A DNA stretch of 41,089 nucleotides, taken from positions 1 to 41,089 of the forward strand of contig JAPLVY010000008.1 of NCBI GenBank assembly GCA_026396875.1, read 5' to 3'. Every line of letters begins with the position of its first letter. The stretch's first letter is position 1. The notes beneath the pieces were generated by a model, which had not been told where the DNA came from, did not search any database, and was given only the letters and a program-made list of their open reading frames with translations. This stretch comes from Candidatus Falkowiibacteriota bacterium. GTDB taxonomy: Bacteria > Patescibacteriota > Patescibacteriia > Patescibacteriales > UBA12465. Below, piece after piece: positions 15,476 to 29,122 of this stretch. The position numbers and the translations under genes were made by a program.

Positions 15476-17557
15476 TTATCTAGCGCTCTTGGTTTTGATG
15501 GTTTCCAGAATATTTCTTGGCACTTCGCTATACTGCAGGAATTCCATGGAGTAATTAGCGCGGCCCTGGGACATCGAACGAAGTGAAGTGGCATAGCCAA
15601 ACATTTCGGCGAGTGGTACTTTGGCGTGAATCAACTTTATCTTGTTCGGTCTGTCACTCATCTCTTCGATTTGCCCACGCTTGGAATTCAAATCACCAAT
15701 TATATTTCCCATGTAATCTTCTGGGGTGGAGACTTCTACTTTCATTACTGGTTCCAATAATACTGCACCAGCTTTTTGACAAGCATCTTTGAAGGCAAAG
15801 ATACCGGCCATTTTAAAGGCGAGTTCAGAAGAATCAACTTCGTGATAAGAACCATAGAAGACCGCTACCTTCACATCCACAATTGGATAACCAGCAACGA
15901 CACCACTCTGAAGAGCCTCTCTGACACCCTTTTCAATCGCTGGAATATATTCCTTTGGAATAACTCCGCCCTTAACTTCATCAACAAATAAATATCCTTC
16001 GCCAGTTTCACGAGGTTCAACGCGCAAGGAACAATGTCCATACTGACCTTTACCGCCGGATTGCTTAATGTATTTATGTTCGGCTTCAGCAATTTTGGTG
16101 ATAGTTTCACGATAGGAAACTTGAGGGTTACCAACATTAGCTTCAACACCAAATTCGCGTTTCATGCGGTCAACGATGATATCAAGATGAAGTTCACCCA
16201 TTCCGGAAATCAAAACTTGATTAGTTTCTTCGTCAGTTTCAACACGGAAAGTTGGGTCTTCTTCGGCTAAACGCTGCAAAGCGACACCCATTTTTTCCTG
16301 ATCGGCCTTGGTTTTTGGCTCAACAGCAATCTTGATAACTGGCTCTGGGAAAACGATATTTTCCAAAAACATCTGACGTGATTCATCACACAAAGTGTTG
16401 CCAGTGGTTGTGTTCTTTAGTCCAATAACAGCGGCAATATCCCCAGCGTAAACCTCTTTAACTTCTTCGCGGTGATTAGCGTGCATACGAACTAAACGGC
16501 CAACGCGTTCTTTGTTTCCAGTTTTTGAATTGACGATATACGAACCAGCAGTTAGAACACCGCTATAAACACGAACGAAACATAACTTACCAACAAAAGG
16601 GTCGGTGGCAATTTTAAAGGCTAGGCCAGCAAAAGGCTGGTTGTCGTCGGCCAAGACTTTGTATGTCTTTTCCGGATCATCAACATCAATACCTTCAATT
16701 TCTGGAGTTTCCAGTGGTGACGGTAAGTATTCATTTACTGCATCAAGCATCAATTGAACGCCGATATTTTGCAAAGCGGTTCCACAGAAAACTGGATAGA
16801 TTTGGTTAGTAATCACACCTTGATGAATCGCTTTCTTTAACTCTTCAACGCCAATTTCTTCACCGTTTAAATATTTTTCCATCACTGCCTCGTCACATTC
16901 AACAGCTTTTTCAACGAGTTCAGCGCGATATTTTTCAACATTAGCTTTCAGGTCATCAGGGATTGGAATTTCAATAATATTTTCTCCATTCTGGCCTTTG
17001 AATTCGTAAGCTTTCTGATCAAGCAAATCAACAATACCAAAAAGATGATCTTCGGCACCGATTGGCAATTGAGCAGCAACTGCTTTTGGGCTCAAACGAT
17101 CGCGAATGGAAGCAAGACTCATATAGAAGTCAGCACCCATCTTGTCCATTTTGTTTACAAAACAAAGACGTGGGACATGATATTTATCAGCCTGACGCCA
17201 AACAGTTTCGGATTGTGGTTCAACACCGGCCTGTCCATCAAAAACAGCGACAGCGCCGTCAAGGACACGCAAAGAGCGCTCTACCTCAACAGTAAAGTCC
17301 ACGTGACCAGGAGTATCGATAATATTGATTTTATTCCCCTTCCAGAAACAAGTGGTGGCAGCAGAAGTGATGGTAATACCACGTTCTTTTTCCTGTTCCA
17401 TCCAGTCCATTTCGGCAGCACCTTCGTGCACTTCACCGATCTTGTGCTTTTTACCAGTGTAAAATAAAACACGTTCGGTAAAAGTAGTTTTTCCAGCATC
17501 AATGTGAGCCATGATACCGATGTTTCTAATTTTGTCTAAGGAATAATCGCGGGGCAT
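15476..17557 (-). CDS. fusA: Elongation factor G
   Basis: EF-G (693 aa) drives tRNA-mRNA translocation and, with RRF, ribosome recycling. The P-loop is AHIDAGKT at residues 17-24; G3 DTPGHVDF, G4 NKMD and a G5-like CGTALQN follow. All five domains are present; domain IV has the expected RETI...[15 protein letters not shown] stretch and domain V the [10 protein letters not shown] segment. The length is standard. It is third in the str operon. Its 222-base upstream spacer contains a 113-bp repeat, two short palindromes and AT-rich sequence, with no Shine-Dalgarno motif. Confidence 0.98.
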
Positions 17558-17631: not shown

Positions 17632-17658
17632 TGAGAATTCTCTCTACTATCTAGATAG
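17632..17658. other. Two short palindromes next to the repeat, upstream of fusA
   Basis: GAGAATTCTC and CTATCTAGATAG are perfect 10- and 12-base palindromes, a few bases apart and directly beside the 113-bp repeat. They could form small hairpins in the fusA leader. They are not present beside the second repeat copy. Confidence 0.4.
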
Positions 17659-17663
17659 GTTTA

Positions 17664-17776
17664 CATTTTGAGATGAAATGCAAGGAAGGAACCGGCATTG
17701 GAATGAGCCGTATTAGACATACGGCGAATGAAAAATGGCGGGAGCCTGACGAAGCAGTTCGCTCAAAATGGAAGCC
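17664..17776 (-). repeat. 113-bp structured repeat, copy 1 (rpsG-fusA spacer)
   Basis: This segment is 86% identical (97 of 113 positions) to 28611-28723, with no gaps. Counting from 17664, positions 1-9 (CATTTTGAG) pair with 99-107 (CTCAAAATG), 29-36 with 71-78 (seven of eight pairs), and 45-50 (CCGTAT) with 56-61 (ATACGG), giving three nested stems. A small hairpin (GAA-GCAG-TTC) lies at 88-97. Positions 79-113, the 5' end in the transcribed direction, are identical in the two copies. It begins three bases after the tandem stops TAG-TAA of rpsG. It may be a MITE/REP-like element or a structured mRNA element; no transposase is in the window. Confidence 0.9.
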
Positions 17777-17779
17777 TTA

Positions 17780-18247
17780 CTAGCGAGAGAAGTGAGCAAA
17801 GGCTTTATTGGACTCAGCCATCTTATGAACCGCCTCGCGTTTACGAACGGCAGCTCCTTCGCCATTACTGGCATCAAGAATTTCTACTGCTAATTTATCG
17901 GCCATTGCTGCACCCTTGCGAGATAAAGCAGCCTTAATTACCCAGTTGCAACCCAAAAAATAACGGCGTTCACCGCGAACCTGAAATGGAACCTGATAGT
18001 TTGCACCACCAACGCGTTTACCGCGCACTTCAACCAAAGGAGAAACTTTTTTCACGGCTTTGTTGAAAATATGGCGTGGATCCTGCTTGGTTTTTTGTTT
18101 AATAATTTCGAAGGCATCATAAACGATTTTTTCAGCAACACTCTTTTTGCCACGTTCCATAACATAGTTAATGAACTTGGCAATAGTTTTGTCGTTATAT
18201 TTTGCGTCACCTTCGATATCTCTTTTTGGAGCTTGTTTACCTCTCAT
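17780..18247 (-). CDS. rpsG: 30S ribosomal protein S7
   Basis: S7 (155 aa) nucleates assembly of the 30S head. It opens MRGKQAPKRDIEGDAKYND and has the family signature around YDAFEIIKQKTKQDPRHIFNKAVKKVSPLVEVRGKRVGGANYQVPFQV, then the C-terminal helix with KMAESNKAFAHFSR. The length is typical. It ends with tandem stops (TAG then TAA), and the 113-bp repeat begins immediately after. In E. coli S7 represses its own synthesis at the rpsL-rpsG spacer. Confidence 0.97.
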   Translation of the reverse strand: MRGKQAPKRDIEGDAKYNDKTIAKFINYVMERGKKSVAEKIVYDAFEIIKQKTKQDPRHIFNKAVKKVSPLVEVRGKRVGGANYQVPFQVRGERRYFLGCNWVIKAALSRKGAAMADKLAVEILDASNGEGAAVRKREAVHKMAESNKAFAHFSR

Positions 18248-27970: not shown

Positions 27971-28552
27971 TTACACGCGTCTTGGTTTCTTTGGACGGCA
28001 GCCATTGTGAGGCACCGGGGTAACATCTTTGATTGCGGTGACATTTAAGCCATTGGCGTTCAAAGCGCGGATGGCAGCTTCGCGACCCGTGCCAACACCG
28101 GCAACAAATACGCTGACTTCCTCCAAACCATATTCTTCACGAGCTTTTTGGGAAGCAATTTTGGTAATAATCTGAGCGGCGTAAGGAGTAGCTTTTTTGG
28201 CACCCTTGAAACCGGCCATACCAGCACTTGCCCAAGAAATAACGTCGCCGTTAGTGTCAGTCAGAGAAATCATGGTGTTGTTATAGGTGGCATTGATATA
28301 AGCGCGGCCAACTTTAACAATCTTGGCACCGGCTTTTTTCTTTTTCTTCTTCACCAATTTTTTCTTTGCCCTGGCCTGTTTGTTCTTTTCCAGTTTCTGC
28401 TTGATTTCGTCCGGTAACTCTTCGTCAGCGGCGGACAAGGTGGAAAATTTCAAATCTTCGTCATCATCATCTTCAACTGGAGCAATTACCGCTTCCGCTG
28501 GAGCGACTGGGGCCAAGACTTCTTCTTCAATTTTCTTATTCTCTTCAGACAT
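27971..28552 (-). CDS. rpsK: 30S ribosomal protein S11 with long N-terminal extension
   Basis: S11 (193 aa against about 129 in E. coli) forms part of the 30S platform. The core begins near residue 78 ([36 protein letters not shown]) and ends with the signature [26 protein letters not shown]. The extra 75 residues consist of an acidic Glu/Asp/Ala part followed by a Lys-rich stretch. The gene is preceded by 58 AT-rich bases and copy 2 of the 113-bp repeat. Confidence 0.97.
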
Positions 28553-28610
28553 AAATTATATTATATTTTTTGAATATTGGATTCTTCTTTATAATGATTA
28601 TTTTGGATTT

Positions 28611-28723
28611 CATTTTGAAGTGAAATGTGAGGAAGGAATCAACATTGGAGTGAGCCGTATTTCACATACGGTGAACGAACAATGTTGAGAGCCTGACGAA
28701 GCAGTTCGCTCAAAATGGAAGCC
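28611..28723 (-). repeat. 113-bp structured repeat, copy 2 (rpsM-rpsK spacer)
   Basis: Same length as copy 1. The middle stem, positions 29-36 with 71-78 (TCAACATT/AATGTTGA), is perfect here; relative to copy 1 two base pairs changed on both sides (C-G to T-A and G-C to A-T) and one mismatch became A-T. The outer stem differs by one position that becomes a G-U pair only in the transcribed-strand RNA. It begins six bases after the first stop of rpsM, which is again a tandem stop (TAG TAG). Confidence 0.9.
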
Positions 28724-28729
28724 ACTCTA

Positions 28730-29122
28730 CTAAGTCTTTAATCCGGCCTTAACCTTTCCAGATCCTGCAGTCATACGCTTATTGCCACGAACAGTTCTGC
28801 TATTAGTCTTTGTTCTCTGGCCACGAGCTGGTAAGTTCTTGGCGTGTCTAGTGCCACGATAACAACCGATATCCTTTAAACGTTTGATATTGCTTTGGAC
28901 TTCACGACGTAAGTCACCTTCGACGGTGTGTTGTTTCTCAACGATTTCACGGATTAAGTTTACTTCTGCTTCAGAGAAATCCTTCATTTTAGTTTCCGGA
29001 TTGACTTTCGCTTTTTCTAAAATTTTGTGCGCGCGGGTAATGCCGACACCATAAATATAAGTCAGAGCGACATGGGCGCGTTTTTCAATAGGAATATTTA
29101 CTCCTGCGATTCTAATAGCCAT
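28730..29122 (-). CDS. rpsM: 30S ribosomal protein S13
   Basis: S13 (130 aa) forms intersubunit bridges with L5 and contacts P-site tRNA. It opens [35 protein letters not shown] (helix-two turns-helix) and has the signature [28 protein letters not shown]. The length is slightly above the usual 118-125 aa. It ends with two TAG codons in a row, followed immediately by the repeat. Confidence 0.97.

Follow-up and report, generated by a model that had tools for sequence, protein, structure and literature searches.

A MITE-like structured repeat of Patescibacteria, apparently undescribed, that carries one hairpin core within two types of ends and, in one bacterial family, lies mostly behind ribosomal protein genes

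The window analysed here, a stretch of 41,089 nt, carries two copies of a structured repeat, each lying between two operon genes encoded on the - strand. Copy 1 has its hairpin core at 17664-17776 and adjoins with its 3' end the stop codon of rpsG (S7; 17780-18247, - strand; Pfam Ribosomal_S7, E 2e-56), with fusA (EF-G; 15476-17557, - strand; Pfam EFG domains) as the operon's next gene beyond it. Copy 2, with its core at 28611-28723, adjoins in the same way the stop codon of rpsM (S13; 28730-29122, - strand; Pfam Ribosomal_S13, E 9.6e-31) and is followed by rpsK (S11; 27971-28552, - strand; Pfam Ribosomal_S11, E 2.1e-38). Tandem stop codons precede both copies (TAG TAA and TAG TAG), as an earlier note on this DNA had stated, and Pfam confirms the S7 and S13 genes that it named. 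The S11 protein has an acidic N-terminal extension of ~80 residues, with the S11 domain at residues 82-192, and the start of this extension is also visible in relatives.

Comparison of the two 113-bp cores recovered exactly the 16 substitutions that the earlier note had counted, and a BLAST match between the copies (E 1.6e-34 within the window) excludes chance likeness. A 35-base block is free of any difference, the inner stem (45-50 with 56-61) is the same in both copies, and the compensatory changes that had been described are real, pair 29/78 changing from C-G to T-A and pair 31/76 from G-C to A-T. One change, from G to A at position 9, affects the outer stem (1-9 with 99-107), which is otherwise conserved as had been described. 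Alignment of the copies with each other and with relatives suggests that the full palindrome is somewhat longer than 113 bp, extending on the + (folding) strand over about 17656-17779 for copy 1, whose ends were set by analogy with relatives of the TAGGACTT type, and over about 28603-28726 for copy 2 by the same geometry (~124 bp each). A covariance model matches the copies at 17660-17780 (127.9 bits) and 28607-28727 (128.4 bits). A DNA search followed by the covariance model located a third copy in the source genome (G000; 767 kb, 10 contigs) at G000:C2:22275-22395, between rsmI and a gene of 497 amino acids without a Pfam match.

The earlier note had staked its reading on further copies and on covariation in the proposed stems, and the search of related genomes returned both. 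Copies in relatives were first found by DNA search at the S7, S13 and rsmI sites of close relatives, and the covariance model was built from seven copies of the source genome and these relatives. With this model we detected 18 copies in the host family (the bacterial family of the source genome), where 11 of 39 genomes are carriers; in the order, 20 of 111 genomes carry the element, and in the class 61 of 381, with 1-9 copies per genome. The model's E-values are rough owing to a shortened calibration, but scores of 50-128 bits leave little doubt. A DNA pattern scan matched Falkowbacteria, Campbellbacteria, Portnoybacteria, Gribaldobacteria, Buchananbacteria, Peregrinibacteria and one Saccharibacterium, all of which the model upheld, including the Peregrinibacteria (82 bits) and the Saccharibacterium (78 bits). 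The model did not confirm a few pattern hits outside Patescibacteria, in Fibrobacteria, Lachnospiraceae and Pseudoalteromonas, which probably arose by chance. No match was obtained among the plasmids, phages and viral contigs searched, no Rfam family matches the element at gathering or loose thresholds, and we found no report of it in the literature on MITEs and repeats of candidate phyla, our search having covered open-access papers. The element, which occurs in many Patescibacteria and carries no gene of its own, is apparently undescribed; open frames in the core occur at about chance frequency, by our own estimate of the expectation.

Measured against shuffled sequences, the + strand folds of copies 1 and 2 have z scores of -7.7 and -7.4, compared with -4.3 and -2.8 for the gene-sense strand; both strands are more stable than their shuffles, by a far wider margin on the + strand. 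Because the flanking genes lie on the - strand, it is the complement of the operon mRNA that has the stronger fold. The first seven copies, which were aligned without the model, share a common fold on the identical strand in all seven, with changes on both sides in 22 of 40 pairs (12.0 in shuffles, 1-5 in slid controls). Among 83 copies from the class, 38 of 40 pairs show changes on both sides and 87.9% of cells pair, against 63.3% when shuffled and 32-42% when slid, although this alignment was fitted to the model and its counts lean towards it. These data show that compensatory change upholds a single conserved hairpin on the + strand of the core, interrupted by two purine-rich internal loops.

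Read from the outside inwards, the fold opens with an outer stem, which has a 1-nt bulge, and passes through a purine-rich internal loop in which AGGAA faces UGACGAAG. A variable stem in the middle follows, then a second purine-rich step with UGAG facing GAAC, and the fold closes in a GUA...UAC hairpin. In copy 1, RNAalifold and the pair counts place the outer stem's 5' half at 17660-17687 on the + strand and its 3' half near 17755-17774; the 5' side of the purine-rich loop (AAGGA) lies at 17687-17692 (+) opposite TGACGAAG at about 17746-17754, and the innermost hairpin CCGTATTAGACATACGG lies at 17708-17724 (+), its GTA...TAC part being nearly invariant across the class. The internal-loop consensus of the 83 class copies reads AGGaa / tgACgaaG, and tandem G-A pairs could form in such loops. 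We also considered a resemblance of GAGCCGTAT to group II intron domain V and dropped the idea, the hairpin being far too short.

Given that these hairpins are located behind genes, convergent, look-alike intrinsic terminators were considered and are refuted: a T-run is found on neither strand, neither window copy has a terminator-like site, the sites lie inside operons, and the copies share a detailed 120-base core together with target duplications. A further alternative is that the element encodes a small structured + strand RNA (a guide, decoy or regulator) antisense to the operons, its palindromic ends serving mobility. The conserved fold and the purine-rich loops belong to the + strand, as does an excess of G-U pairs over A-C mismatches (228 to 123 over all copies), and two end types carry the one core. 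This excess is lacking in some genomes, however (9 to 10 in G009), there is no Rfam match and no partner gene near solitary ends, and promoter-like matches at both window copies stay at chance level. The + strand folds better in 91 of 92 non-redundant copies, but the model was built on that strand, so that the asymmetry is partly ascertained, and DNA energy parameters likewise favour the + strand; on strand asymmetry alone, the folding molecule could be either RNA or single-stranded DNA. Taken together, we consider the small RNA rather unlikely.

Two types of ends enclose the same structured core. The first has palindrome ends TAGGACTT[A/T]CGCG and measures mostly 122-124 or 164 bp; the second, the GAGATGG type, has palindrome ends GAGATGGTTRCAAAA and measures 174-177 bp. 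Terminal inverted repeats, TAGGACTT and GAGATGGTT, are present in relatives, the ends of the window copies having diverged. Relatives also show fixed-length target duplications of two lengths, of the kind left by cut-and-join transposases during DNA transposition. Duplications of 5 bp flank 14 of 54 elements of the TAGGACTT type (mean 0.37 and maximum 3 in 500 shuffles), and duplications of 3 bp flank 16 of 29 elements of the GAGATGG type (shuffled mean 3.9, maximum 8). The window copies themselves have worn ends and no clean target duplication, but CTAGA at 17651-17655 (+), left of copy 1, matches four of five bases of CTAGC at 17780-17784 (+), which includes the S7 stop TAG (17782-17780, - strand), and the two may be a decayed 5-bp duplication that holds this stop, a match that is suggestive only. 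The elements are short (122-177 bp), have no transposase gene and are dispersed, with 1 to >20 copies per genome; G431 holds >20 of the TAGGACTT type and G065 eight of the GAGATGG type.

We conclude, with a probability of roughly 80%, that both repeats derive, as old copies, from a transposable element of Patescibacteria that is MITE-like, non-autonomous and built as one long imperfect palindrome of ~124 bp. Of the two readings offered in the earlier note, that of a MITE/REP-like mobile family is supported for the family as a whole by dispersal, inverted-repeat ends, target duplications in relatives, empty sites and clustering by genome. Its REP/RAYT form is not supported, since no Y1 transposase was found in the source genome or several other carriers and relatives have target duplications. 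Placement of the core inside a different MITE, or its swapping into one, is the simplest account of the two end types. In G065, perfect 49-bp palindromes GAGATGGTTACAAAACTATTTCG-TAG-CGAAATAGTTTTGTAACCATCTC occur in many copies (for example G065:C5:5115-5163, L077 1501-1549), and 33-bp versions occur in G105 and G064; the 49-bp palindromes are a minimal MITE with the GAGATGG ends of the 175-bp type from which the core is missing. A further variant, in G151 (L182-L190), carries an extra hairpin of ~40 bases near the 3' end and has nine copies.

Searches for a mobiliser covered the transposase families PF01797, PF01609 and PF13586, with a source genome about 89% complete. No carrier yielded a transposase with matching ends, none lay beside solitary ends, and Y1 transposase (PF01797) is absent from G000, G009, G003 and G028. 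The DDE families were rejected as mobiliser, PF13586 being absent and PF01609 occurring in some carriers with unrelated inverted repeats at its ends. In G110 and G380 (L329, L330), PF01609 genes are flanked by long perfect inverted repeats, TAGTGTCCGGTTTAAT and CTGCTGTCCGGTTA, which are unrelated to the element ends. Another reading has the element recognised as a single folded strand of DNA, in the manner of IS200/IS605, REP-RAYT or integron attC. Folding is strand-specific, and abutment of stops in a fixed orientation recalls the attC sites of gene cassettes; yet the neighbours are core operon genes and not cassettes, attC core-box pairs (RYYYAAC / GTTRRRY) number 0 in 92 elements against a shuffled mean of 1.45, and target duplications of relatives do not fit IS200/IS605, which leaves none. 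With Y1 absent from the four genomes above, this single-strand reading is largely refuted and very improbable.

Unexpectedly, stop codons tend to be abutted by the 3' end of the element and very rarely by its 5' end. Each of the 18 copies of the host family is antisense to the genes on both sides, and 17 have a stop codon within 8 nt of the 3' end. In this family the element is found immediately after stop codons, most often after the stop of a ribosomal protein gene. In a sample from the class, a 3' end facing a stop lies within 8 nt of it in 23 of 50 cases and a 5' end in 1 of 29 (Fisher p 3e-5); because open reading frames were called on length alone, individual distances may err, but both ends are compared within a single data set. 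Not one of about 28 copies of the GAGATGG type abuts a stop, nor does any of the nine G151 copies. We also considered that abutment might rise with copy age, for which within-genome identity served as proxy, and observed no correlation.

Filled and empty versions of the same spacer were compared among relatives. The rpsG-fusA spacer measures 185-320 nt where the element is present, at 0-1 nt past the stop, and 17-86 nt where it is missing. Eleven of the 18 host-family copies, among them a tandem pair in G009, sit behind rpsG, and the rpsG-site element is missing from 26 of the 36 family genomes that have rpsG. In G002, the nearest relative by S13 (98% identity), the S13-S11 site is empty. Identity to copy 1 is 83% for copy 2 and 81% for the rsmI-site copy of G002, but only 63% for the rpsG-site copy of G002, although the S7 proteins of the two genomes are 97% identical. 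Element trees and identities largely group copies by genome rather than by site, which fits movement or gene conversion inside genomes. Some rpsG-site copies within one genus are nevertheless related, such as those of G003 and G028 (74%), and pairs are kept between such copies far more often than expected at random; between the rpsG copies of G003 and G013, for example, ten pairs are changed on both sides and kept while one is broken, against a random expectation of 1.6 kept and 16 broken. Ordinary dead MITEs should lose their pairing, yet pairs are kept even at one site, which points to function or constant renewal; the rpsG-site copies are either selected in place or renewed from a pool under selection.

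The second reading in the earlier note, a structured mRNA element of ribosomal operons, is not supported in the form given there, since the stronger fold is antisense to the mRNA and sites outside the host family are mostly ordinary operons. A narrower version holds that the host-family copies behind rpsG, rpsM and the gene preceding rsmI are domesticated mRNA elements that set stability or downstream translational coupling. Their uniform antisense orientation and stop abutment, the 11 copies behind rpsG and the pairs kept between G003 and G013 argue for it, and ERIC elements near 3' gene ends alter mRNA stability in an orientation-dependent manner (PMC2229807). Against this, the mRNA-sense strand folds worse than its complement in every copy folded, at seven sites, the rpsG site is so often empty, and the rpsG-site elements of G000 and G002 are quite different. 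We regard domestication as a possibility, though an improbable one.

Returning to the MITE-like element, we propose that a transposase supplied in trans would work on its ends, while the core would have a + strand job of its own, as transcript or as single-stranded DNA, that could have kept it through the exchange of ends. In the host family, only copies that lie directly behind a stop and whose folding strand is complementary to the mRNA would have persisted, perhaps because these disturb operon expression least. A bolder version, which we advance only tentatively, is that the core is a nucleic acid with an independent function, be it RNA or folded single-stranded DNA, which travels through Patescibacteria inside two or more unrelated MITE end systems and was recruited behind the stops of ribosomal protein operons.

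Several known repeats resemble the element in part. ERIC/IRU of enterobacteria are imperfect palindromes of about 127 bp with inverted-repeat ends, intergenic and transcribed, whose autonomous partner is not known (PMC2229807, PMC10969869); the likeness is one of size, palindromy and setting and does not come from sequence alignment, and the present element differs in its 5- or 3-bp duplications, conserved internal loops, class-wide covariation and Patescibacteria hosts. Correia/NEMIS of Neisseria are MITEs of 100-160 bp whose transcripts form long hairpins cut by RNase III (PMC2229807), but their ends and size classes are different and a class-wide covarying fold is not claimed for them (PMC2229807, PMC10969869). 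QMITE2 of Coxiella burnetii lies primarily in 3' untranslated regions, with neither exact end-specific stop abutment nor two end types on one core reported for it (PMC10969869). The GTAG- or CGTC-tagged palindromes of REP/RAYT systems are likewise short and extragenic, but REPs measure 20-40 bp against ~124 bp here, and the present element has target duplications and no Y1 in several carriers; GTAG or CGTC occurs near either end in 24 of 92 elements, with no consistent tag. By anatomy the element forms a new MITE superfamily, which we place outside REP and attC and, on a comparison of size, palindromy and setting, outside ERIC. Its unusual features are a single detailed, covarying and strand-specific core kept within both end types and throughout a whole class, together with end-specific stop abutment.

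Patescibacteria genomes are very small, yet a noncoding mobile element with an elaborate fold is widespread in them, and the element can serve to test why repeats that move would keep a strand-specific structure across different transposon ends. Filled and empty rpsG-fusA and rpsM-rpsK sites provide a natural series for the effects of a hairpin on expression. Some sites have a more complex structure. In G005 (G005:C91:387-856), rpsG is seemingly split over two frames beside the element (match 41-155 and 1-42), which may be a sequencing error. The rpsG site of G009 (L052 2715-2959) holds two full elements in tandem and in one orientation between rpsG and fusA, and at the S13 site of G001 (L014 1362-1530) a full element adjoins a short remnant of another, as if one had gone into the other or taken its place.
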